A stretch of 64,000 bases of DNA from the NCBI GenBank assembly GCA_020850615.1, contig JADZEI010000004.1, positions 248,001 to 312,000 on the forward strand, given 5' to 3'. The stretch is from Dehalococcoidia bacterium. GTDB lineage: Bacteria; Chloroflexota; Dehalococcoidia; Tepidiformales; Tepidiformaceae. This document shows positions 15,718 to 51,606 of the stretch, in pieces. The translations under genes and the position numbers were made by a program. How positions within the stretch are numbered: the stretch's first letter is position 1; each line of letters begins with the position of its first letter. Below the pieces are notes generated by a model that was not told the DNA's origin, did not search any database, and saw only the letters and a list, made by a program, of their open reading frames with translations.

Positions 15718-15819
15718 CGGGGGCGCGGTCTGATACAATCGGCCGGGTCCGGGCGGACGGGTGGCGCCGGTCGTGCGCGCGAGCGGGAGTAGCTCAGTGG
15801 TAGAGCGCCTGCCTTCCAA
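15718..15819 (+). repeat. 102-bp direct repeat, left copy (promoter + 5' half of tRNA-Gly)
   Basis: This stretch matches 51467-51568 at every position but one (gtccgggcgg here, gtccggccgg there). It contains the tRNA promoter -10 sequence TACAAT and the tRNA 5' half. Identity stops abruptly in the anticodon loop, after CCTTCCAA. On the left it is preceded by the pseudokinase 3' flank, and on the right copy by RHS debris. That is the arrangement expected when a circular DNA carrying this 102-bp segment recombines with a chromosomal tRNA-Gly gene. Confidence 0.9.
15783..15819 (+). pseudogene. Truncated tRNA-Gly(TCC), 5' half only
   Basis: The sequence matches the intact tRNA-Gly at 51532 for its first 37 nucleotides: the acceptor 5' strand GCGGGAG, the D arm GCTC-AGTGGTA-GAGC, the anticodon 5' strand and loop CTTCCAA. 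It then diverges into unrelated sequence. The anticodon 3' strand, T arm and acceptor 3' strand are absent here and found nowhere in the following kilobases, so no functional tRNA can form. Confidence 0.9.
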
Positions 15820-16210: not shown

Positions 16211-16573
16211 CTACCAGCCCACGGGCTTGGATCGCGAGTCCTCTTTCGGTGACTTCGGCGCATAGTGCTTTCTAAGGGCTCGAATTACTTCGATTGTCGA
16301 CACCAGGATGATCAGTGAGATGAAGATAAAGAGGTTAACTTCGGCCCCCATTAACGACACAAGTGCTCCGAAAAGAATCAACCAAAAGGGTGCTAAGCGT
16401 GGCGCCAGCCTCCAGCACACCGAGAGGGTCAGCCCGCAGGCAATCGCGATGCCGGCGGCGAGGGAGGGTATCGATCGGAAGGCGCCCGCCGCGTAAAGCA
16501 ACGTAATCGTCGAGAACAGCGCGCTCGACACGATGGCGACGCCAAGCTTGGAATTAGCCCTCCACCTCAACAT
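16211..16573 (-). CDS. Small membrane protein, candidate orphan immunity gene of the RHS array
   Basis: A 120-residue protein with about four membrane helices (starting at VAIVSSALFSTITLLYAAG, then LAAGIAIACGLTLSV, LAPFWLILFGALVSLMG and FIFISLIILVSTI) and a charged C-terminal tail. I set the start at ATG 16573 because AGGAG sits five bases upstream. The frame is open further upstream into RHS debris, but those codons are not part of this gene. It lies downstream of an RHS fragment, like the displaced toxin-immunity tips in other RHS arrays, where the immunity protein often outlives its toxin. No toxin sequence is recognisable in the 160 bases between the RHS fragment and this gene. No family match is evident. 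Confidence 0.6.
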   Translation of the reverse strand: MLRWRANSKLGVAIVSSALFSTITLLYAAGAFRSIPSLAAGIAIACGLTLSVCWRLAPRLAPFWLILFGALVSLMGAEVNLFIFISLIILVSTIEVIRALRKHYAPKSPKEDSRSKPVGW

Positions 16574-16761
16574 TGTACTCCTGTACCGGCCGTCCATCTT
16601 GTGATGGCTGTCATGATATCGTCCGCCGATCCCCCTGATCCTGCGGGGAGGATTCAGATTAAACCGAGCACCACCGCACACCCAAGCTGGCGATCCGATA
16701 GTTTGCCCTCTTCTCGATCCCTCGCCAGTTGTTCGTGCCTCATCTGTTGACTTCGCCGGCG

Positions 16762-17111
16762 CAGGGCTCGGCGGCGTGACGCTCGTGATCCGGTCGTTGT
16801 CGTCGTAGGCGTACGTTGTCGTCCCGCCCGCGTCGGTCATCGAGGTCCGGTTGCCGAAGTCGTCGAACGCGTAGCTGGTGGTGCTCGGCCCCGGATAGGT
16901 GACCGAGGTCAGCCGGTGCACATCGTCGTAGGCGTACGTGTGCGTCCCCGCCTGGTCCACCCGCTGTGTCCGGTTCCCCACGTTGTCCAGCGTGTACGCG
17001 ACCGAGGCCAGCGTCGTCCCGCCCTGGTCGTGGACGATGCCCCGTCAGCCAGTCCGCATGTCATAGCTGTACGTCGAGACCACGCCGGTGCCCGTCGGAA
17101 GCGTCGAGTGC
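16762..17111 (-). pseudogene. RHS/YD-repeat gene fragment
   Basis: About 350 bases closely similar to 18804-19140 of the large RHS gene, read on the same strand. They encode about six YD repeats (for example YAYDDVHRLTSV, YAFDDFGNRTSM, YAYDDNDRITSV). A two-base insertion near 17041 (gatgccccgtc against gatgccggtc) breaks the frame. The homology ends after a Pro-rich TPPSPAPAKS segment, where about 160 bases of unrecognised sequence precede the small membrane-protein gene. This is the expected form of a displaced RHS tip: a short stretch of core homology followed by a different C-terminus. Confidence 0.85.
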
Positions 17112-17118
17112 CCCTTCA

Positions 17119-17682
17119 TCAGGACAAATGTAATTCGGCGTGATCGAGTTTGGCCGATGACAAGGTCGACTTTAGGCGACCAATATCTGCATCTTGGAGG
17201 ACCAGGTGAAATGGTATTGGGAGTGACGTTCCGAACCTTGACGGGCAGCCCTCTGACTCGAAGCGACGAATAATACGTTGGACTACTTCAATCAAGTACG
17301 TGAGTTTGTCCACTTCCGGGCTGTCTGCTAATACTTCCGACGCGTCCGTAATAATCATTATGATCGTATGATCGCTCTGATCTAGCCATGTCGCGTCTCC
17401 TAGACAGTCTTGTAAGGCCGCCCAATTGTTACCGAAGTAGAGCGGAAATTGAAAAGATGCCGACATTTCAGTCATCACTTCGTCATCAGAACGCATCTTC
17501 CGGCCACGAACCCATCTAATATTTACATGCTTCTCATTAAGAAGTGCGGGCCAGAACAAATTCGTAATGAGTCCCACATCGAGATCAGTAACGAATATCT
17601 CATGCTCATTCAGACGAAATACCTCCGGCCAAATGCTCCATGCTTCTCCGCTATGCAATGGCGAACGGTAATCGTCGTTCAT
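17119..17682 (-). CDS. Barstar-family immunity protein
   Basis: A 187-residue protein containing a barstar fold. RGRKMRSDDEVMTEMSASF is followed by FPLYFGNNWAALQDCLGD, the signature loop and helix with which barstar covers the barnase active site. The Asp matching barstar Asp39 is kept in LQDCL, while the position of Asp35 is Ala. Flanking N- and C-terminal segments make it longer than the 90-residue archetype, as in many polymorphic-toxin immunity proteins. The ATG at 17682 overlaps the stop of the RHS toxin gene by four bases (ATGA) and has GAGG five bases before it. Base composition is visibly more AT-rich than the surroundings. It should neutralise the barnase-like tip of that gene. Confidence 0.88.
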   Translation of the reverse strand: MNDDYRSPLHSGEAWSIWPEVFRLNEHEIFVTDLDVGLITNLFWPALLNEKHVNIRWVRGRKMRSDDEVMTEMSASFQFPLYFGNNWAALQDCLGDATWLDQSDHTIIMIITDASEVLADSPEVDKLTYLIEVVQRIIRRFESEGCPSRFGTSLPIPFHLVLQDADIGRLKSTLSSAKLDHAELHLS

Positions 17683-20246
17683 GGAATCCTCGTGAAAGTC
17701 GTGTAGTGATCTGTCGTGTACCACGCACTACCGTCCGAACCCAAGACAATTCGTTGATTGCCGCGATTCGTTCCGGTTGGGACTTGTTGAACGTCAAATT
17801 CGGTATATGTGATCGGATTACCATCGCTGTCCGTCTTTGGAAGTACTTGTCCGTTACCACGACCATCGTTTTCCCAAGGCCTGCCCGCGCCAGCAGTAGT
17901 ATTGTCCCAAGGCACATGCTTATTGAGCCGAATGAATCGAACGAGTTCCTGGATGGTTTCGAGCGTGAGAGCTGTAGGCCCGAGGAATTTCAGAACATAG
18001 TCTACGAAGTCCTTGGAGTTTCGTCCGGCAGAATCGCATATTTTTTGATATTCATCGTTGAGCATGCATATTCGGTAGCTATTGAGACCAATTCCGAAGA
18101 AGAATCTCTGTTCGATGAAGAACTTAGAACTGGACGGGAACCAAAGAGAAATCCCTCCATCGGAGACGGCGTCGACTCGCTTCCAACGAGCCCAGGACCA
18201 AAGTCCAGTCGGGTCGGTCGCATTAGCAGGATTGGCTGAGCCGTACTGATGGGGAGATTCAAGCCAACCAACCTCAGCTGCCAGTGGATCTCGACTCAGG
18301 AACGTCCCCGTTTCCGTGTCGTAGTACCGCGCCCGCAGGTACTGCAGGCCCGTCGGGTCCGTCTGCTGGCCCGCGAACTCGAACTCGTTCGCCTGGCTTC
18401 CGCTCGTTCTCGTCACCTCGCCGTAGACGTCGTACTCATAGCTGTTCACGACCGTCCCCGTACCGTCCACCGTCTTCATCGTCGAGCCGAGCCCGTCGGC
18501 GAGATAGTAGTACGTGTGTGCACCCGACACCTGGCTCACCAGCCCGGCGCCGTAGACGTACTGCGCACCATCGTCCAGGACGACCGGCAGGCCGGCGGCG
18601 ATGTCCCAGGTGAAGTAGGTCGTGTTCCCGCCGGTCGTCCGGCTGTCGCGGAGGCCGTCGCCGCGGTAGGCGAAGGTCGTGGTCGCGCTGTTCACCGTCG
18701 CCGAGACCATCCGGTCCTCGTAGTCCCAGGTGAAGCTGTCGCTCCCGCGGGCGGTGAGGTTGCCGTTGTCGTCCCAGGTGTAGCTCTTCACCGGGTCCGG
18801 GCTCGGCGGCGTGACGCTCGTAATCCGGTCGTTGTCGTCGTAGGCGTAGGTCGTCGTCCCGCTGCCGTCGGTCATCGACGTCCGGTTGCCAAAAGCATCG
18901 AACGCGTAGGTTGTCGTGCTCGGGCCGGGGTAGGTGACCGAGGTCAGCCGGTAGACGTCGTCGTAGGCGTAGGTGTGCGTCCCCGCCTGGTCCACCCGCT
19001 GGGTGCGGTTCCCGACATCGTCGAGCGTGTAGGCGACCGAGGCAAGCGTCGTCCCGCCCCTGTCGTGGACGATGCCGGTCAGGCGGTCGGCGTTGTCGTA
19101 GCTGTACGTGCTGACCACGCCGGTGCCACTCGGGAGCGTCGCGCTCGTCATCCTCCCCGCATCGTCATACGCGTACGTCGTGATGTCGAGGTTCCAGTCG
19201 GTGACAGAGGTGAGGCGGTTCGCGTCGTCGTACCCGTAGGCGACCTGGTTCGAACCGCCGGGATAGGTGATGAGGGTCCGCCGGCTGGCATCGTCGTAGC
19301 CATAGCTCACGGTGCGGCTGCCGGGGAACGTGACCGAGGCCAGGCGGTAGAGGTTGTCGTAGCTGTAGGTAGTCGTCCCGGTGCTGTCGGCCATCTGCGT
19401 GCGGGCGCCGGCGTCGTTGTAGCTGAAGGTCGTGTCCGTTCCCGCCGGGTAGTCGATGAGGGTGAGCTCGTTGCGGTCGTTGTAGCCGTAGGCGATGGCC
19501 TGGCTCTTCGGGTCCGTGCGCGAGGTCAGGCGCCCAGCGAGGTCGTAGTCGTAGGAGCGCACCTTGCTCAACGGGTCGGTCTCGGACTCCAGTCGGCCGA
19601 GGTTGTCGTAGGTATAGTTCGTCGTCTTGTTGCGCGGGTTCGTCTTCGCAGCGAGGTTGCCGACCGCGTCATACGTGAAGGCCCAGGTCCCGCTCTCCGC
19701 ATCGGTGACCGTCGCGAGGAGGTCGCGACTGTTGTAGGTATAGCTCGTGACGTTCGTATTCGCGTCCGTGACGGTGAGGACGTTGCCGTTCTCGTCGTAG
19801 GTGTAGGCGGTGACGTTGCTGAGAGCGTCGGTCGCCGTGAGCAGGAGGTTGGCGTCGTTGTAGGTGAACGTCGTCGCGTGGCTCAGCGGGTCGGTGACCG
19901 ATGTCACGCGGCCCTTCGTGTCGTAGACGTACGTCCACGTCTTACCCAGGGCGTTCGTCACGGTCGTGCGGTTGCCGTAGCTGTCGTAGCCGAAGGCCGT
20001 CGCGTGGCTGAGCGGGTCGGTGACCGCGGTCACCTCGCCGTTGCTATTTATCGTGAAGGTCGTCGTCTTGCTATTCGCGTCGGTCACCGAGGTGAGGTTG
20101 CCGGCGCTGTCATAGCCGTAGGTCGTCACCCGGCTCAGGGGGTCACGGCCTTCCGGCGACCGTGCAGATGGCATCGCGGCGTGCCGCAACGGGGGCCGCG
20201 CCGGCCGAGACTGTAGGAATCGCGTAAGAGACGAGCCCGCTCGCAC
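17679..20246 (-). CDS. RHS/YD-repeat polymorphic toxin with barnase-like RNase tip (5'-truncated)
   Basis: Up to 855 residues. Roughly 24 YD repeats (YxYDxxGxLTSVTD type) start at about residue 35. The conserved RHS core YLRARYYDTETGTFLSRDP lies near residues 630-650, and the variable tip begins after DPTGLW. The tip ends in a barnase/RNase N1 domain. It keeps the catalytic Glu (TEFDV, Glu816), both arginines (NRGNQRI, Arg828 and Arg832) and the His (TTDHY, His847) that correspond to barnase Glu73, Arg83, Arg87 and His102. RHS proteins normally carry a signal peptide or other N-terminal delivery domains and are longer. Here homology starts inside the repeats and the first 35 residues are unrelated, so the gene has lost its 5' part and its start is unreliable. 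Confidence 0.85.
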   Translation of the reverse strand: MRAGSSLTRFLQSRPARPPLRHAAMPSARSPEGRDPLSRVTTYGYDSAGNLTSVTDANSKTTTFTINSNGEVTAVTDPLSHATAFGYDSYGNRTTVTNALGKTWTYVYDTKGRVTSVTDPLSHATTFTYNDANLLLTATDALSNVTAYTYDENGNVLTVTDANTNVTSYTYNSRDLLATVTDAESGTWAFTYDAVGNLAAKTNPRNKTTNYTYDNLGRLESETDPLSKVRSYDYDLAGRLTSRTDPKSQAIAYGYNDRNELTLIDYPAGTDTTFSYNDAGARTQMADSTGTTTYSYDNLYRLASVTFPGSRTVSYGYDDASRRTLITYPGGSNQVAYGYDDANRLTSVTDWNLDITTYAYDDAGRMTSATLPSGTGVVSTYSYDNADRLTGIVHDRGGTTLASVAYTLDDVGNRTQRVDQAGTHTYAYDDVYRLTSVTYPGPSTTTYAFDAFGNRTSMTDGSGTTTYAYDDNDRITSVTPPSPDPVKSYTWDDNGNLTARGSDSFTWDYEDRMVSATVNSATTTFAYRGDGLRDSRTTGGNTTYFTWDIAAGLPVVLDDGAQYVYGAGLVSQVSGAHTYYYLADGLGSTMKTVDGTGTVVNSYEYDVYGEVTRTSGSQANEFEFAGQQTDPTGLQYLRARYYDTETGTFLSRDPLAAEVGWLESPHQYGSANPANATDPTGLWSWARWKRVDAVSDGGISLWFPSSSKFFIEQRFFFGIGLNSYRICMLNDEYQKICDSAGRNSKDFVDYVLKFLGPTALTLETIQELVRFIRLNKHVPWDNTTAGAGRPWENDGRGNGQVLPKTDSDGNPITYTEFDVQQVPTGTNRGNQRIVLGSDGSAWYTTDHYTTFTRIP

Positions 20247-20405
20247 TGGACTGGTACATATGTGTGACTGTCCGGTGTTGATAAGGGGTATTGACTACTC
20301 TTAGACTCCGCGCGATCACGGCCCGATCCATTCCCATTCGGGAGTGACTGCGGGTGTGATGGGCGCTATTGTGCCGAAACCGTGTAGGTCACACAGGAGT
20401 ATGTG

Positions 20406-23400
20406 ATGAGCAGGTGGTATCTGGGGGCCATCAATGGTGGTTGGGGGCGGTGCGGAGGGGCGCTGTCCGCACTCAAGCGGCCGGCGGCAGCGTTGCTGGC
20501 GCTGGTCGTCGTGGCAGTTTCCACCCTGGGCGGCGGAACGAGCGCCCGGGCAGTCGAGCCCACGTACTGGTTTCCACATTCCTCTGGCCTCGCCAGAGAG
20601 GGGTCTTTTGAGGGCGTGCTGACCGTCGAACGTGACATGACGGAGGGAGCCGCCGAGGTCGTGTGCCTCGCTACGGATGGCACGGGCACCGCTGCGGCTG
20701 ACCTCGCCAGCGCAACGGCAATGGCGTCATTCACAGAGGGCCAATCCACCGCGTACTGCGTGTTCACGGCTGTCGACGACAGCACAGCTGAAGCGTTCGA
20801 GAGCCTGACCGTCGAGCTCGTGGCACCACTCGGCGGGATCGCTGGAGCGCCGTCGACCGCCGAACTCCTGATTGTGGACGACGATGGCGGTGGCGAATTC
20901 TCGCTGACTTCGACGGCGGCCGTCGTGACCGAAGGTGACTCCGTCTATGCGGAAATCGTCCGGGCGGGCGACCTCGCCGGCGGGACGATCGTCTACGTCA
21001 GCTTCAATGAAGGCTCGGCCACTTGGGATGACCTTGGCGGGGGCGGCTGGGACTTCTACTTCCATGAAGGTGACACGCATCGCGGGGGCTACCTGCCGAT
21101 CGTCGATGACCTCATCCCCGAACCGTACGAGACGTTCACCGTCGGGATAACCGGCGTCTCGGGCACCGGAACGGTCACGGTGTCGCTCATGACCGTGACC
21201 ATTGTCGATAACGATGGGCCGCTACCGCCGCCTGCCGTGCTGCCGCAGCCAGAGCAGGCTGATATCTATGGCTACACGAGCGTCACCATCGACTTCGTCC
21301 TCCCCCCAGGAGTGACATGCGCGAGTGACAGCGGAGAGCTGCCCTTCGAAGGTTCGGCCGAATGCTCGGCCTCCGACGTCATCCTGACGGAACCGCTTTC
21401 GTTGGTCGAACCACCATCCGTTCACGACACCGATCTTTCCGACCCCACGGTGGTGAGCGTCACCGTGACCGGGAATGCGGTGGGGCCCGGGACTGGCACC
21501 GTGGAGTTGGCGGTGAAGTACGAGGGCGAGGGCTACGTTTCATCCGAGGCGACCGTGACGGTGCACCCCTCCGCGGCCGTCCTGACCGCCCCGACCACGG
21601 TTTCGGCCGGCGGAAGCCACAGCCTCGCTCTCGACGGAGACGGTGAGCTGTGGCACTGGGGGAGTGACTTCTCGGGCCAGTTCCCCTGGCCCGGGCCGCT
21701 GCGTCCTCGTCACTACCCCTTCCCGGCTCAGCTCGCCTCCGTTGACGCAGGCGGAGGGCACTCGATGGGGGTGACCGCCACGGGCGATGTTTGGACCTGG
21801 GGATACGACGCCTATGGACAGATGGGCGATGGGCCCGGCGGGTTCGGGCAACCCTTCCACGTCCCTTTCCCGGCCTCCGCGGTTGCCATCTCTGCGGGCT
21901 CGAGTCATTCGTTCGCGCTTCTTTCGGACGGCACGCTCTGGGCATGGGGAGCGAACGATCGGGGTCAGCTCGGGTTGGGATACGCCACGCCGTACCCGTC
22001 TGACCCCCTTGGAGTCGAAACGCCGCAGCCGGTTCTCATCAGCGACGTAGCGACAGTGGCAGCCGCCAAGGGGGGCGGCCATACGCTCGCGCTGAAAAGC
22101 GACGGCACAGTCTGGGGTTGGGGCGAAGCATCGGCAATCCTCACCTCTCTGCCTGAAGGGGGTTGGCCGAACGAGCCGATCGTCGCTCCGCAACACATCC
22201 CTGGGCTCACTGATGTGACGGCTATCGCGGCCGGCGGCTATCGTTCGCTCGCACTCAAGTCCGATGGGACCGTGTGGGAGTGGGCTGCGTGGAGCGGCCT
22301 CCAGCAAGTCCAGGGCCTGCCGGATGACATCGTCGCAATCACGGCCGGACCAAACTCGGCCCACGCACTCACGAGCACCGGTGAAGTTTACGGCTGGGGG
22401 GGCAACTATCGCGGGAGCGTCGGAGACGGCACGTTCGATGCCAGGCCAATGGCTGTGCCATTGAACCTGTCCGGGACCGCGGTGCAGATCTCCGACGGCG
22501 GAAGCGACCACTCGCTCGCCCGCCTGGCCGACGGTCGCATCTTCGCCTGGGGCGCAAACGGGAACGGGATGCTCGGTATCGGCACTGATACGGATACTCC
22601 TACGCCGACCCAGGTCCTGTTCGGCCCTTCCGACACGGTTACCTGTTCAGGGGAGCAGTGGCCGACGCGGTATCCATTCACCATCTCGTGCTCGGCGGAC
22701 CTGGCCGATGGCTCCAGCCCCGTCACATGGGTGGCAATGGGCCTGACACCCGACACACAAGTTGGCACGTCGGCATCCTTTGCGACGGCCCTCCCGGATG
22801 ATGATCCGCTCCCACCATCGTGGCCCGCATCAATCGAGGCGAGCTGGACAGACCCGCAGGGCAACCCCCGGACGGTGACTTTACCCCGGACGATTGAGAG
22901 CCCGGCAAGCTGTTACGGCGGACAGTCGACCACCGTCCACTGCTCGTTGGTTGTCGGGGGCGACTTCGGGACATGGACGGCGACGGGGTTCTCCCCTGAG
23001 TTCTCGAACAGCACCTGGCAGGAGTTCACACGTCCGCCATACACGTCTGGGACCATCACGGTCACATTCGCCGGCCGCCAGCAGGTCTTCGACTTCCCGT
23101 GGCCTGCCCCGCCACCCGCGGTGCCGGAGTTGCGTTGGGTCGCGCCTGCGGGGAACGTCATTCTGGGGCAGCGGTATGACTTCCGGAGCGTCGGCAGCCG
23201 CGTCCACGCCTGTGTCTTCGATGGCGTGACGGGGATGCCGATGAGCCTGCCCGCGTTCAACATCGGGGACATAGTCGTCGCGGGAAGCGGTGGCCACACC
23301 GGCACGGCCGACCCGGACCCGAACCTCGTGGATCCCATCGTGTACATCGGTGGCGGACAATCCCAGGGTGCGCTTTGCCTGAGCTGGGTGTCGACCGAGG

Positions 23401-26400
23401 CTGGCGAGCAGGACCTCAGCCTTGGCACCGTGTGGAACGGCGCTCCGTTCGTGGTTGGCTGGGACAGCAACGGGGACGGGAACGGCAATCCCGCGCTGGT
23501 GAACGCCCCCCTCACCGCCGGCTGGGCGGTCGTTGACACGATCGAGCTGAGCTACGGCGGCACGGTCTACAGCGGCAATGACGCGGTGGACCCGCTGGGC
23601 GCCGTTTCGGCGACGACGTGGCCGCCGTCCCAGAACACGCTCCAGGTCGCAGGACAGGGGCAGTACGTGGACGGGTCGGGGGTGGTCCACCATTCGTCCA
23701 GCCTCTTCCCCCCGACGGGCATCTTCGGCCTGACCATCGGGATAACGCCGAGTGACCAGTGCGTCCAGGCACCGCTGGTGTTCGAAGGCGCGCCGGCGGT
23801 GTACCAGCTCGACGTGTCCGGCTGCCCGCCGTCCACCGAGCTCGACCTCACGGTGACGGTGCAGGCACCCGGCGTCCTTGGCTCGGGCCCGTCGCCCACG
23901 GCCACGGGGATCCTGCATGTGACCGTGCAGCCGCAGACGCCGGCGGCGAAGCACGTGCTGCTCGCGTGGGCGGGGCAGCGCGTCATCCTCGAACACGACT
24001 GGCGGTTGCTGTTCGGCGGCATCGCCACCAACGAATACCAGGGCCTCTGCCCGTTCGCCCAGTCGTTCAACGTCCAGTACGTCCAGAGCTACGGGCCGGG
24101 GACCTTCATCGCGACCCCGGGGGCCGAGCTTACGTGGGACCCGTTCGGGTCGCATCAGGCCATGATCGCAGTGATCGGGGATAACACGCAGGTGCCGGAA
24201 GAGGTGCCGTGGGACCCGCAGGGGGCGTGCATCAGCCGGGTGCTCTATGAGTCGGAAGACCCGGGCCAGGTCGACGTGGAAGCGTTCGTCCCCGAATGGC
24301 CGGCCGCCCCGAAGGCCGCGTTCGTCATCTTCTACATGAAGTTCAACGCGGTCACGATGGCGGTCGAGACTGGCGTTTCGAAGCCAACCGTGAACCTTAC
24401 AGGCGGGGACTGGGCACCGGGCAACCCGTGGCATGCGGCCGCGCCCGGCGGGCCGGTCGAACGGGACCTCTACCTGGACGTGCTGGTACGCGGCCAGGTG
24501 ACCGGCTGGTTCATCAACGAGAACCCGTCGGGCCGGCCGCAGGATCCTTCGAACCCGCTCAACGTGCTCCCGGCCAACCGCTGGGTGCTGCCGGACGACT
24601 GGGCGCTGCTGGCGGGCGGCCCCGCGGACCCGGCCGACGGCTCAGATGCGACCGGCACGGGCGAATCGTTCCGGCCCGGGTACAACCTTCTGTTCGCGCC
24701 GAACAACAGCCTCGGGCTCGAATGCGCGACGCCTTCGGGGCCGTGCGAGGAGCAGCCGATCGGGGCGCCACCACCTCCTTCGACGCTGACCGGGCTCATC
24801 GAAGGGCCGTACAGCACGCTCGACGTGCCGGGCCCCGGCTCGGCGGCCCTGGCCAGCGGAGCGTTCGAGATCCGCGAGACAATCGTCCGGGACAACGACA
24901 TCGACCGCTGGGACGCGCCGATGCCGCCGGCGATGGTGTCGGTCTCCATTCGCGGGACGGGCTACATCCGCCAGGTCCGCAAGGAGGACGTGTACTACCT
25001 CGGGACGCCGGACGCGCCCGGGCAGACGTTCACGAACCTGTTCTACAGCGCGAATATCCCCGCCTCGCCGTTCATCCCGGCCGTGGTGGCCGGCGGCGGC
25101 TACCTCTGGGACTCCTTCGGGAACGATGGGCCGGGCGATGCCGGCAACGGCCCGCACGAGTTCTGGGTGCCGGTGGTCATCGGGGCCAACTCTTCGGGCG
25201 TGGGCGACGCCAGCCTCACGCCGGCGGAGCAGTCCGCCCTCGATGGCCTACGGGCGGACAACAGCGACCCCACCATCGCCCGTGACCTCGTCGTCTATTC
25301 CGACAACCACGGCGAGTTCATGGTCGCGGCAAACGGCCGCTTCCGCGGCGACCCCGGGACCTGCAACGCGACGAGCGCCGCCGGCACGGGCACGGTTACG
25401 GCGGTGGCCGATTATCCGGATTTCCGCGGAAAGCACTTCCCGGTGGGGTCGAACCCGGCCGTCATCAACTGGAAGCGGGTGAACCAGGTCGTCAACGGAG
25501 TCTCGCCGGCGACCGTCGTCATCGGCAGCGAGACGGGGACGTTTACCGTGACTGGCGCGGGCTTCGAGTCAGGACGGTCGCAACTCTGCGTCAACGGCCT
25601 GCCAGTGCCGACTACGGTCGTCTCGAACCTGGAGATAACCGGCGAACTGCCGGGCGACCAGGTGGAGGCAGGGACCTATGAGGTGCGGGTCATCCACACC
25701 GACCCGGGTGGGCGGCTCTCACGCCCACTCGTCATCCTCGCGACGGTCGAAGAGGCCGAAGTCGAGGCTGCCGACGCGGGTTCGAGCGATGACCCGACCG
25801 ACACGGTGACCGTGGCGGCGGACGGCGGCACCGCCGGCTCCGCCCAGGCGACGACATCGGAGGGCACGGGCACCGTGGCGGTCGCGGTGTACGCGGACAG
25901 CCCGGCGACGCCCACGACCATCGCAGCCGAGGCCTACTTCGACATCTACGTGGCGCCGGAGAGCACCTTCACCAGCGTGACGGTCGAGCTGTGCCAGGCG
26001 CCCGGCGGCCCCGAGGAGCTGTACTGGCACGACGGGTCCGACTGGTCCGAAGTATCGGACTACACCTACGACGGTGGGACCGGTTGCTTCACCGTGGTAG
26101 TCACGGAGGACTCATCGCCGTCGCTCGCGGACCTCGGCGGGACCGTCTTCGCGACGGGCGCGCCGGATGGCGACGGCGACGGCACGCCCGACCACTCCGA
26201 CGGCTGCCCAGCGATGCCCGGGCCGGAGTCGCTGCACGGTTGCCCGGCAGCGTGCAGCATGGCGCCCACCATCACCGGGACGAACAGCAACGACATCATC
26301 CAGGGCACGTCCGGCGACGATGTCATCTTCGCGATGGGCGGCAACGACCGGGTGTACGGCAACGGTGGCAATGACGTGATCTGCGCCGGCGACGGCAACG

Positions 26401-26804
26401 ACACCGTGGTGACCGGCGGCGGCGACGACCTCATCGATACCGGGAGCGGGAACGACTCGGTCTCGGCCGGAGACGGCAACAACGCGGTCTTCAGCGGCGA
26501 CGGCAACGACACGGTGACATCGGGAGGCGGCAACGACCTCGTCGATACCGGGGCCGGGAACGACTCGATCACGGCCGGCGACGGGGACAACGCCGTGTTC
26601 AGCGGTGACGGGAACGACGCGGTGGAATCGGTTGACGGCGACGACCGGATCGAAGCCGGGACGGGCAACGACACCATCAACGCAGGCGCTGGCGACGACC
26701 ACGTCGACGCCGGCACCGGCAACGACACGGTCAACGGTGGTCCGGGAACGGACGCCTGCCTGCCTGGTGGGGGGTCGGACAACTTGTCCGGTTGTGAGCC
26801 GTAG
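20406..26804 (+). CDS. Giant secreted Calx-beta/RCC1/IPT/RTX-repeat protein
   Basis: A 2132-residue exported protein. Residues 20-48 form a Sec signal peptide (LLALVVVAVSTLG, cleavage near ARA-VEP). Two Calx-beta domains follow (about 50-165 and 170-275, each closing with IVDDD or IVDND). A run of six to eight RCC1-type repeats spans about 395-740 (AGSSHSFALLSDGTLWAWG pattern). A long uncharacterised beta-rich middle follows, then an IPT/TIG domain near 1700-1778. A thrombospondin-3-like calcium loop (DGDGDGTPDHSDGCP) lies near 1922, and RTX nonapeptide repeats run from about 1953 to the end. AGGAG lies seven bases before the chosen ATG. It is probably a calcium-dependent surface or adhesive protein. 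RTX proteins usually use type I secretion, but no such genes are nearby. Confidence 0.88.
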   Translation: MSRWYLGAINGGWGRCGGALSALKRPAAALLALVVVAVSTLGGGTSARAVEPTYWFPHSSGLAREGSFEGVLTVERDMTEGAAEVVCLATDGTGTAAADLASATAMASFTEGQSTAYCVFTAVDDSTAEAFESLTVELVAPLGGIAGAPSTAELLIVDDDGGGEFSLTSTAAVVTEGDSVYAEIVRAGDLAGGTIVYVSFNEGSATWDDLGGGGWDFYFHEGDTHRGGYLPIVDDLIPEPYETFTVGITGVSGTGTVTVSLMTVTIVDNDGPLPPPAVLPQPEQADIYGYTSVTIDFVLPPGVTCASDSGELPFEGSAECSASDVILTEPLSLVEPPSVHDTDLSDPTVVSVTVTGNAVGPGTGTVELAVKYEGEGYVSSEATVTVHPSAAVLTAPTTVSAGGSHSLALDGDGELWHWGSDFSGQFPWPGPLRPRHYPFPAQLASVDAGGGHSMGVTATGDVWTWGYDAYGQMGDGPGGFGQPFHVPFPASAVAISAGSSHSFALLSDGTLWAWGANDRGQLGLGYATPYPSDPLGVETPQPVLISDVATVAAAKGGGHTLALKSDGTVWGWGEASAILTSLPEGGWPNEPIVAPQHIPGLTDVTAIAAGGYRSLALKSDGTVWEWAAWSGLQQVQGLPDDIVAITAGPNSAHALTSTGEVYGWGGNYRGSVGDGTFDARPMAVPLNLSGTAVQISDGGSDHSLARLADGRIFAWGANGNGMLGIGTDTDTPTPTQVLFGPSDTVTCSGEQWPTRYPFTISCSADLADGSSPVTWVAMGLTPDTQVGTSASFATALPDDDPLPPSWPASIEASWTDPQGNPRTVTLPRTIESPASCYGGQSTTVHCSLVVGGDFGTWTATGFSPEFSNSTWQEFTRPPYTSGTITVTFAGRQQVFDFPWPAPPPAVPELRWVAPAGNVILGQRYDFRSVGSRVHACVFDGVTGMPMSLPAFNIGDIVVAGSGGHTGTADPDPNLVDPIVYIGGGQSQGALCLSWVSTEAGEQDLSLGTVWNGAPFVVGWDSNGDGNGNPALVNAPLTAGWAVVDTIELSYGGTVYSGNDAVDPLGAVSATTWPPSQNTLQVAGQGQYVDGSGVVHHSSSLFPPTGIFGLTIGITPSDQCVQAPLVFEGAPAVYQLDVSGCPPSTELDLTVTVQAPGVLGSGPSPTATGILHVTVQPQTPAAKHVLLAWAGQRVILEHDWRLLFGGIATNEYQGLCPFAQSFNVQYVQSYGPGTFIATPGAELTWDPFGSHQAMIAVIGDNTQVPEEVPWDPQGACISRVLYESEDPGQVDVEAFVPEWPAAPKAAFVIFYMKFNAVTMAVETGVSKPTVNLTGGDWAPGNPWHAAAPGGPVERDLYLDVLVRGQVTGWFINENPSGRPQDPSNPLNVLPANRWVLPDDWALLAGGPADPADGSDATGTGESFRPGYNLLFAPNNSLGLECATPSGPCEEQPIGAPPPPSTLTGLIEGPYSTLDVPGPGSAALASGAFEIRETIVRDNDIDRWDAPMPPAMVSVSIRGTGYIRQVRKEDVYYLGTPDAPGQTFTNLFYSANIPASPFIPAVVAGGGYLWDSFGNDGPGDAGNGPHEFWVPVVIGANSSGVGDASLTPAEQSALDGLRADNSDPTIARDLVVYSDNHGEFMVAANGRFRGDPGTCNATSAAGTGTVTAVADYPDFRGKHFPVGSNPAVINWKRVNQVVNGVSPATVVIGSETGTFTVTGAGFESGRSQLCVNGLPVPTTVVSNLEITGELPGDQVEAGTYEVRVIHTDPGGRLSRPLVILATVEEAEVEAADAGSSDDPTDTVTVAADGGTAGSAQATTSEGTGTVAVAVYADSPATPTTIAAEAYFDIYVAPESTFTSVTVELCQAPGGPEELYWHDGSDWSEVSDYTYDGGTGCFTVVVTEDSSPSLADLGGTVFATGAPDGDGDGTPDHSDGCPAMPGPESLHGCPAACSMAPTITGTNSNDIIQGTSGDDVIFAMGGNDRVYGNGGNDVICAGDGNDTVVTGGGDDLIDTGSGNDSVSAGDGNNAVFSGDGNDTVTSGGGNDLVDTGAGNDSITAGDGDNAVFSGDGNDAVESVDGDDRIEAGTGNDTINAGAGDDHVDAGTGNDTVNGGPGTDACLPGGGSDNLSGCEP
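26415..26630 (+). repeat. Two tandem 108-bp repeats in the RTX region
   Basis: Two consecutive 36-residue units (26415-26522 and 26523-26630), each made of four RTX nonapeptides in the same order: a GGG-D/N-DL-I/V-DT unit, then G-S/A-GNDS, GDG-N/D-NAVFS and GDGND units. DNA identity between the units is high. This indicates recent internal duplication of a calcium-binding beta-roll segment. Confidence 0.8.
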
Positions 26805-50130: not shown

Positions 50131-50198
50131 CTACGTAGTCGTAGATGGTGCGTGCTCCCACCTGGTCCACCCGCCGCAATTGCCGACATCATCGAAGG
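50131..50198 (-). pseudogene. RHS/YD-repeat gene fragment (short)
   Basis: Sixty-eight bases similar to about 18960-19030 of the large RHS gene, in the same orientation. The shared block includes CCTGGTCCACCCGC and the following GACATC-TCGA pattern. It is flanked by the hsdR remnant on one side and the 185-codon orphan gene on the other. It is thus one more tip-junction scar of an RHS array. Confidence 0.65.
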
Positions 50199-50199
50199 C

Positions 50200-50757
50200 T
50201 CATACCCAGCCTGACCGCGCCAGGAGTCTGTCTCCGTGCGCTTCGCCCATCACGTGGCGCACGAGCGGTCTGACCCATGCATCGTCCGATGCCGAAGACC
50301 TCGCGAACGACTGCCGCCACTCAGAAAGCATCTCGATTGTCGATTCATCCGAGAACTCTTCCATTCGATTCTGCAAACAGGCAACCGCGCACTCACTGCC
50401 CACGAATATCGCGAAGTACTCCGACGATATCATAATTGCCCAAGACAGGTCAGTCGCAACGATGGCATTCTCGGTAACGCCACTGAATCCTTTCTCGGCA
50501 AGGCCTTCATAGAGCAAAGGGTTGAGAAGATCTATCTCCCAAACCCCTGGCTGTTTCCCTTCTAGTTCGAACAGTACTGCGCCGACCGAATCCGCGCCCA
50601 CACACCCAATGATACCTTGTACCTGATCACGAGTGAGCGTGTAACCAAACCCGTGACCAAGTCGTCGGAATTCTTGACTCTCGACAACAGGGCAATCGTA
50701 AACGTTGTAGTTGGAAAAGAACTCTTCGAATATCTCGTACATGTCGTCGGGAGTCAC
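50200..50757 (-). CDS. Orphan protein, candidate immunity gene of the RHS array
   Basis: A 185-residue acidic, apparently soluble protein with no family I recognise. It begins with MYEIFEEFFSNYNVYDC and includes a WEIDLLNPLLYEGLAEKGFSG segment. It is clearly more AT-rich than the surrounding genes. It lies directly downstream of a 145-base RHS fragment and upstream of another, the position and composition expected for an immunity gene left after its toxin tip was displaced. There is no sign of a toxin domain between the RHS fragment and the gene. Confidence 0.6.
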   Translation of the reverse strand: MTPDDMYEIFEEFFSNYNVYDCPVVESQEFRRLGHGFGYTLTRDQVQGIIGCVGADSVGAVLFELEGKQPGVWEIDLLNPLLYEGLAEKGFSGVTENAIVATDLSWAIMISSEYFAIFVGSECAVACLQNRMEEFSDESTIEMLSEWRQSFARSSASDDAWVRPLVRHVMGEAHGDRLLARSGWV

Positions 50758-50802
50758 GATTCGCTCCTAGCGGCCAGCCCGCTAGCCAAATCAGCCGTTG
50801 AG

Positions 50803-50947
50803 GTTCGGCGCGACCAACCACGTACGCGTGGGTCGAGACCACGTCGGTGCCGGTCGGGAGCGTCGAGCTCGCCATCCTCCCCGCATCGTCATACGCGTAG
50901 GTCGTGATGTCGAGGTTCCGGTCGGTGACAGTCGTCGGCCGGTTGGC
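50803..50947 (-). pseudogene. RHS/YD-repeat fragment A (145 bp)
   Basis: This block is similar to about 19105-19235 of the large RHS gene and encodes DRNLDITTYAYDDAGRM and STLPTGTDVVSTHAY. It is nearly identical in sequence and exactly equal in length (145 bp) to fragment B at 51275-51419. Both share the same left edge, GTTCGGCG followed by GACCAACCACGTACGC. The common endpoints suggest the two were made by the same kind of recombination event. Confidence 0.85.
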
Positions 50948-50973
50948 AGCCTTTCGCGCAACCCGGGTGTCAG

Positions 50974-51174
50974 TCATCTCGGAAGGCTGTGTAGCAACTC
51001 AATAAGCTGACGATGAAGTTCTTTGGCCGGTTCGATATCCGTTCCAGTTAAAGTTTGAAAATCCTCTCTACTTAACGCCCTGAATGTCTCATTCATGGCA
51101 TTCGCCAGCATTATAGCTTCCCACGAGTCGAGACTGATCTCAGCCCCGAATTCAGTAACCTTAAGGACTAGCAT
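50974..51174 (-). CDS. Small orphan protein, candidate immunity gene
   Basis: A 66-residue protein (start LVLKVTEFGAEISLDSWEAIMLANAMNE, end LIELLHSLP) that looks helical and soluble. It is markedly AT-richer than the chromosome around it. It sits between RHS fragments B and A on the RHS coding strand, like a displaced tip module. Small helical immunity proteins of this size exist in contact-dependent systems, but I recognise no family. It could also be the end of a larger lost gene. Confidence 0.5.
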   Translation of the reverse strand: MLVLKVTEFGAEISLDSWEAIMLANAMNETFRALSREDFQTLTGTDIEPAKELHRQLIELLHSLPR

Positions 51175-51274
51175 AGGATTCGAATCTTCCCCCTTTAACC
51201 CTCACAACTACCTTTGTAGCCTATCGAAGTAGTCCCGATCGCTCCGCAAGGCCGTTCCGCCATTGGTGATGAAC

Positions 51275-51419
51275 GTTCGGCGTGACCAACCACGTACGCC
51301 TGGGTCGAGACTACGCCGGTGCCGGTCGGGAGCGTCGAGCTCGTCATTCTCCGCGCATCGTCATACGCGTACGTCGTGCTGTCGAGCGGCCAGTCGGTGA
51401 CAGTCGTCGGCCGGTTGGC
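51275..51419 (-). pseudogene. RHS/YD-repeat fragment B (145 bp)
   Basis: This block is a near copy of fragment A with the same endpoints and corresponds to 19105-19235 of the large RHS gene (LDSTTYAYDDARRMTSSTL in translation). It ends 47 bases before the tRNA-bearing direct repeat. It is the most upstream RHS scar on this side and the piece that would adjoin the left-hand array if the segment were circular. Confidence 0.85.
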
Positions 51420-51466
51420 GGCGTCGTGCCGGGGGGCGATGCCGGCCTCCAGCCGCGCAGCCCGCC

Positions 51467-51568
51467 CGGGGGCGCGGTCTGATACAATCGGCCGGGTCCG
51501 GCCGGACGGGTGGCGCCGGTCGTGCGCGCGAGCGGGAGTAGCTCAGTGGTAGAGCGCCTGCCTTCCAA
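51467..51568 (+). repeat. 102-bp direct repeat, right copy
   Basis: The partner of 15718-15819, with one mismatch over 102 bases and an offset of 35,749 bases. It contains the tRNA-Gly promoter and 5' half, and here continues into the tRNA 3' half. The bases just before it derive from RHS-flanking DNA and differ from those before the left copy. Confidence 0.9.
51483..51488 (+). promoter_or_regulatory. tRNA-Gly promoter -10 element
   Basis: TACAAT (in the context GATACAAT), 44 bases before the mature tRNA 5' end, is a good -10 match. It is present in both copies of the 102-bp repeat. The -35 region is GC-rich and not obvious. Confidence 0.55.
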
Positions 51569-51606
51569 GCAGGATGTCGCGAGTTCGAGCCTCGTCTCCC
51601 GCTCCA
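51532..51606 (+). tRNA. tRNA-Gly (anticodon TCC)
   Basis: A complete cloverleaf: acceptor GCGGGAG/CTCCCGC, D arm GCTC-AGTGGTA-GAGC, anticodon stem CCTGC/GCAGG with loop CTTCCAA (anticodon TCC), variable loop ATGTC, T arm GCGAG-TTCGAGC-CTCGT with one G-U pair, discriminator T and an encoded CCA. It is the intact right-hand member of the repeat pair. Confidence 0.97.

Follow-up and report, generated by a model that had tools for sequence, protein, structure and literature searches.

What are the two small AT-rich ORFs that lie among fragments of an RHS gene, close to a tRNA-Gly, in the genome of a Dehalococcoidia bacterium? The window, that is, the whole stretch of 64,000 nucleotides that was analysed, contains one ORF of 185 residues (P0001) and one of 66 residues (P0002). 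The initial annotation described each of them as sitting behind an RHS fragment on the coding strand, and this was confirmed; the two RHS pieces are 148 nt each. We conclude that P0001 and P0002 probably belong to a decayed array of RHS polymorphic toxins, as orphan immunity genes that have lost their toxins.

The array beside tRNA-Gly

The array and the adjoining tRNA gene comprise the following features:

50200-50757, minus strand: P0001, 185-residue ORF, candidate orphan immunity gene, GTG start with AGGAG upstream
50803-50950, minus strand: RHS piece A, mid-core, aligning to core residues 307-363
50974-51174, minus strand: P0002, 66-residue ORF, candidate orphan immunity gene, ATG start, homologous to P0003 (see below)
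51275-51422, minus strand: RHS piece B, mid-core, aligning to core residues 315-363
51532-51606, plus strand: tRNA-Gly (TCC), adjoining the array

Two further features of the window served as ruler and control:

17119-17724, minus strand: barstar-type immunity gene (PF01337) directly behind the ribonuclease tip, positive control
17679-20246, minus strand: RHS gene with intact core and ribonuclease (barnase-type) tip (PF05593, PF00545), ruler and control

On the minus strand, the order from tRNA-Gly to about 50200 is piece B, P0002, piece A and P0001, and this tandem of scrap, gene, scrap and gene on one strand was counted in favour of orphan immunity genes. Pieces A and B are 91% identical, start 472 nt apart and are both matched by the Pfam RHS_repeat model. 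Piece A is 92.6% identical to the intact RHS gene of the window over 95 nt and piece B 85.7% over 119 nt; thus both are core pieces of the local intact RHS type, a feature of displaced RHS tips. P0001 and P0002 also show a feature of RHS immunity genes, in that each is small and follows RHS sequence in the same orientation, the RHS part here being mid-core. To express positions in the core, residue 21 of the 855-residue frame of the intact RHS gene was taken as core residue 1; the core totals 662 residues and is closed by DPTGL at residues 658-662. On this ruler, A and B both stop at residue 363, about 300 residues before the tip would start, and the core end (DPxGL) running into a tip is absent from both. 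Because A and B end in mid-core, P0001 and P0002 have no tip junction. The two ORFs had been placed initially in the position of toxin-immunity tips, and this holds in that they follow RHS pieces and fails in that these pieces lead to no tip junction.

The gap is 45 nt between piece A and P0001 and 100 nt between piece B and P0002, and beside the two ORFs there are these intervals only, with no cognate toxin, toxin remnant or core end. In the intact RHS gene, the stretch matching A and B lies about 1.4 kb upstream of the immunity gene. This difference in spacing fits loss of the core end and the toxin, which would have disappeared from between the scrap and the gene. A scan for a sigma-70-like promoter or a terminator found none, and it is uninformative because only 0.6 and 1.2, respectively, are expected by chance.

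A 102-nt direct repeat (99% identical) occurs at 15718-15819 and 51467-51568 of the window, 36 kb apart, with one copy beside each of the two RHS arrays. It includes the 5' half of tRNA-Gly together with the flank upstream of it. 5' halves of tRNA-Gly that end at the same nucleotide are also found in genomes G303 (C33:8288-8328) and G321 (C11:54271-54307). The repeat could be an integration trace; no integrase was recognised by eye among the ORFs listed for 26800-58000.

A toxin/immunity pair as internal standard

As noted initially, the base composition of the two ORFs is unlike that of their surroundings. GC is 0.537 in P0001 and 0.460 in P0002, compared with 0.676 in pieces A and B and a window mean of 0.678, so that an AT-rich variable part stands behind a GC-rich core piece at both ORFs, as in displaced tips. 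GC of 0.536 or less was found in 97 of 6345 segments of 558 nt, and these fall into two places only, 50181-51228 and 16971-18368. The latter corresponds to the barnase-type tip of the intact RHS gene together with the barstar-type immunity gene behind it, with Pfam E-values of 1.7e-8 for Ribonuclease (PF00545, in the RHS protein) and 5.1e-15 for Barstar (PF01337); GC of the barstar gene is 0.478. Since this second low-GC place is a recognisable toxin/immunity pair, such a pair has the composition seen at P0001 and P0002. That the only other equally AT-rich stretch of the window is a genuine tip/immunity pair argues for orphan immunity genes. Codon-position GC is 0.60, 0.41 and 0.60 in P0001 and 0.56, 0.37 and 0.51 in the barstar gene. 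The pI is 4.31 for P0001, 4.77 for P0002, 4.85 for barstar and 6.93 for the ribonuclease tip; the barstar-like acidity of P0001 and P0002 points in the same direction. The barnase/barstar pair is thus an internal standard, in the same window, for spotting such genes by position and composition.

The window's second array lies behind the barstar gene and contains more RHS pieces, whose core limits differ from those of A and B. At 16211-16981, an RHS fragment is fused in frame to an orphan of hydrophobic character that may be a membrane immunity gene. Adjoining this array, an ORF of 2133 residues (20403-26804) has RCC1-like and calcium-binding-type repeats by eye.

Homologues and recurrence of the layout

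Neither protein had been assigned to a known family, and this was borne out: no above-threshold match was found in Pfam, PHROGs, PADLOC or NCBIfam. For P0001, there was no match in Pfam at E up to 5, none in PHROGs or PADLOC, and a single sub-threshold match in NCBIfam (E 0.13). Among 301 genomes of the window's phylum (E up to 0.01), P0001 matched itself and one 703-residue frame (E 0.007). Weak matches were found in 14 other genomes among 80 relatives (E up to 1); three more came from 367 genomes of the phylum to which a deltaproteobacterial MAG belongs and one from a set of 8 genomes or records. Ten plasmid records (E about 0.4) and six phage records (E 0.4-0.5) were also matched. Searches by exact 8-residue words, which distant relatives may escape, gave nothing in viral contigs and 31 word matches with no relative in genome contigs. 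Thus, no homologue of P0001 was accepted across the genome, plasmid, phage, viral-contig and genome-contig searches. In the genome searches, P0001 showed weak local matches to proteins that are clear SCP2 and GNAT members. A relationship of P0001 to either family was rejected, as the matches were weak and local and neither Pfam model matched P0001 (E up to 5); they were discounted because per-genome E of about 0.001-0.05 is expected by chance over hundreds of genomes. The fold of P0001, predicted without an alignment, had a pLDDT of 40 and was unusable. When the stretch of P0001 was shuffled with dinucleotides preserved, 9 of 2000 shuffles contained a frame of equal or greater length, and AGGAG lies a few bases before the GTG start. 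What makes P0001 a candidate immunity gene is its position, its composition and its frame.

P0002 differs in this respect, as its length was reached in 325 of 2000 dinucleotide shuffles and is no evidence by itself, while its homology to P0003 is evidence. P0003, also of 66 residues, is encoded on contig C28 of the same genome and is the sole convincing homologue of P0002. The two proteins are 36% identical over 61 residues by BLASTP (E 2e-7 as a single comparison), and their Smith-Waterman score of 74 compares with 23.1 +/- 4.5 for shuffled sequences, none of 5000 scoring as high. P0003 lies behind an RHS scrap covering core residues 311-336 (85% identical, E 4e-6; Pfam RHS_repeat match below the cut-off), which supports the orphan-immunity reading. 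Against it, P0003, with a GC of 0.621 and a pI of 8.41, shows neither AT-richness nor acidity, and it is not the first but the third ORF behind the scrap, after ORFs of 140 and 225 residues. RHS_repeat matches (E up to 1) occur at six to eight places, depending on grouping, in the 4.17-Mb genome, and 2 kb on each side of these places amounts to about 0.7% of the genome by post hoc arithmetic. Immediately behind P0003, at L038 9057-10847, the listed frames contain a regular short repeat that resembles a CRISPR array.

Other searches with P0002 returned no match in Pfam, PHROGs, PADLOC, NCBIfam or plasmids, itself only in the 301 genomes of the phylum, and 10 exact 8-residue word matches with no relative in viral contigs. 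Among the 80 relatives (E up to 1), it matched P0003 (E 0.056), weakly contig C38 of its own genome (E 0.89), and weakly 8 other genomes. A P0002 and P0003 profile recovered both members from 400 genomes of the phylum, together with weak matches (E 0.002-0.009) in 6 genomes. A degenerate DNA pattern of the motif shared by P0002 and P0003 hit 16 loci in genome contigs; none was accepted, and the best (z 8.3) falls inside a 567-residue frame. From a two-row alignment, P0002 was predicted to fold into two strands and two long helices (pLDDT 75), and Foldseek found no match to this model in the PDB (best E 3.2). The structure comparison proposed initially thus had a usable model for P0002 and none for P0001. 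Likewise, the location of homologues, which had been proposed as a check, placed P0003 behind an RHS scrap, and P0001 had no homologue to place. Homologues consistently in non-toxin contexts, or clear membership in an unrelated enzyme family, had been named as contrary evidence, and neither was seen.

The layout recurs in the same genome. The same mid-core piece at C4:217683-217790 (core residues 327-360) has P0004 downstream of it at a distance of 26 nt, which also supports the orphan-immunity reading. On C2, several ORFs follow a weak scrap (core residues 328-348, score 51), and two of them are similar to the C28 ORF of 225 residues (scores 179 and 142; none of 300 shuffles scored as high). 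The ORFs concerned are:

L036 9061-9657 (C4:217060-217656): P0004, 198-residue orphan right behind an RHS mid-core piece, no Pfam match
L038 8114-8791, and L039 4402-4860 and 5448-6137: three related ORFs on C28 and C2, close to RHS scraps, lipoprotein-like starts by eye, no Pfam match

Homology of P0004 to a C2 ORF (z 4.4) or to P0001 (z 4.3) was not accepted.

At the DNA level, piece A found matches in 6 of 41 genomes, its own included, and layouts are described here from four of the other five (G315, G313, G305 and G320), which represent other genera. In G313, a membrane ORF stands behind a scrap (core residues 309-357). It is similar to the ORF that follows a complete RHS tip at the same locus (Smith-Waterman 72, z 9.3, 200 shuffles), and this similarity supports the orphan-immunity reading. 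In G305, a scrap (core residue 315 to at most 360) runs into an ORF without a family beyond RHS, and a DUF6980 ORF (L074 5259-5564) lies just ahead of a further RHS piece. In G320, a DUF4279 ORF (L073 7323-7751) lies between RHS genes; near a further RHS piece, at L073 10730-10873, there is an 84% identical copy of the last 49 residues of this ORF. Beside tRNA-Gly, G315 has at L072 10088-12556 the 3' half of an RHS gene (core residue 288 to core end), then a tip and, overlapping the end of this tip, a small hydrophobic ORF; another RHS piece comes next. With a limit of E 0.1, the tip had no match among Pfam families. That G315 retains core end, tip and small ORF beside the same tRNA-Gly likewise favours orphan immunity genes. 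Among the tRNA-Gly loci examined, RHS lies beside tRNA-Gly only in the genome of the window (G000) and in G315; RHS matches (E up to 1e-5) were absent from the sequence retrieved around all 8 further tRNA-Gly loci in relatives, comprising six intact genes and two halves. Given the six intact loci without RHS, the G315 parallel is a single case.

Taken by position, pieces within core residues of about 307-363 stand ahead of small genes at five sites of the own genome (A, B, C4:217683, C28 and C2) and at one site each in G305 and G313. Their 3' limits are 363 (A), 363 (B), 360 (C4), 336 (C28), 348 (C2), at most 360 (G305) and 357 (G313), so that six of the seven end at residues 348-363 and the seventh at 336. 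This count leaves out a second G305 piece, which stops at the contig end, and the pieces of G315 and G320, which reach the core end.

Explanations and known systems

We propose that each unit of the array originally consisted of an RHS core, a toxin tip and an immunity gene. Displacement of the tip and a later deletion would have removed the core beyond about residue 363 together with the toxin, leaving a mid-core scrap and the immunity gene. The genes would be expressed, and their products would be small acidic proteins, each binding and blocking one incoming toxin and thereby giving protection; the senders would be kin or rivals that still carry the tip. The initial suggestion of immunity families is favoured by the array of RHS remnants, the barstar-like composition and acidity, the position of P0003 and similar layouts in other genera, and is weakened by the finding of no homologue directly behind an intact toxin. 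Also against it are the lack of a toxin or toxin remnant alongside, RHS pieces that are not core ends, and P0001 having neither a homologue nor a usable fold. The further suggestion that each protein, if an immunity protein, points to a cognate toxin elsewhere led to no tip, as no homologue was found directly downstream of an intact toxin. P0001 and P0002 are thus candidates for two new immunity families without a described match, P0002 being the better supported; new families would by nature fail a test of matching a described immunity family.

Among the alternatives, it is unlikely that the ORFs are unrelated passengers, i.e., accessory genes of other function that recombined between RHS fragments at a rearrangement-prone site. 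The lack of a toxin partner, the lack of a P0001 homologue in anything searched and the tRNA-Gly half repeat as a sign of past rearrangement in the region agree with passengers, but the homologue of P0002 sits in another RHS remnant, the layout recurs with different small genes behind the same core piece, and composition and acidity agree with the barstar control. A bolder reading, also unlikely, is that the mid-core scrap is the header of a mobile immunity cassette, by which toxin-less immunity genes were gained and stacked through recombination at the repeat, and that P0001 and P0002 found two families. This idea comes from the mid-core pieces ahead of small genes at seven sites, with mostly similar 3' ends. 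Several points speak against the cassette: a single ancestral copy may have given rise to A, B and the C4 site, the core has a repetitive sequence, the scrap on C2 is a weak one, and RHS pieces elsewhere, both here and in relatives, differ in their limits. Since the pattern of scraps could have come about through common descent and the repetitive nature of the core, the cassette is kept at low probability.

It is improbable that the ORFs are displaced toxin tips or parts of tips instead of immunity genes. In the displaced arrays treated in PMC2935791, tips are likewise AT-rich and likewise lie behind core pieces. However, each gene here has its own start, with AGGAG ahead of that of P0001, and neither is an in-frame fusion to a core end; both are acidic compared with the ribonuclease tip, P0002 has just 66 residues, and neither matches a toxin family. 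The least probable alternative, that one or both ORFs are decayed or chance frames, would suit the readily reached length of P0002 and the missing homologue of P0001, but conflicts with the shuffles of P0001, the AGGAG before its start and its barstar-like codon-position GC, and with the likeness of P0002 and P0003 at the protein level.

The preferred reading, orphan immunity genes left by lost toxins, has parallels in known systems. Displaced RHS tips accumulate with core pieces behind an intact gene (Jackson et al. 2009, PMC2935791), and the arrays described there share with this one the core pieces of local type, the tandem order on one strand and a GC-rich core followed by an AT-rich variable gene; in Serratia, GC is 67.7% for the core and 46.4% for the variable part. 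Unlike here, where the core breaks off at about residue 363 (of 662) without a tip behind it, the fragments in that account keep the core end and a recognisable tip. Orphan rhs-CT/rhsI modules of Salmonella, as portrayed in Koskiniemi et al. 2014 (PMC3967940), similarly have, downstream of the main rhs gene, a promoterless core fragment with a variable unit. These fragments still hold a toxin and can recombine with the main gene, whereas the toxin is absent here. Effectors have been reported to be lost while immunity genes persist (Kirchberger et al. 2017, PMC5361080), and orphan immunity genes at the Rhs1 locus of Serratia can protect (PMC10539506). In both reports, as here, immunity-type genes without effectors are stacked at an effector locus. 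Homology to complete pairs is shown there, and in Serratia protection too, whereas P0001 and P0002 are known from sequence and no homologue in a complete pair was found for them. Heterogeneous polyimmunity loci, in the description of Zhang et al. 2012 (PMC3482391), also combine unrelated immunity-type genes without toxins; in contrast to them, each gene here stands behind an RHS scrap, and the array has two genes only. A limited literature search found no paper on mid-core headers or RHS immunity arrays in this group. If our reading is right, this locus documents toxins once carried by the lineage, and it offers candidate immunity families, and hence unknown toxins, from bacteria whose systems of this kind have received little study. 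In summary, orphan immunity genes in RHS loci and arrays are an already known phenomenon, and what is new here is the two candidate families and the recurring mid-core scrap ahead of orphans, the latter being the unexpected part.
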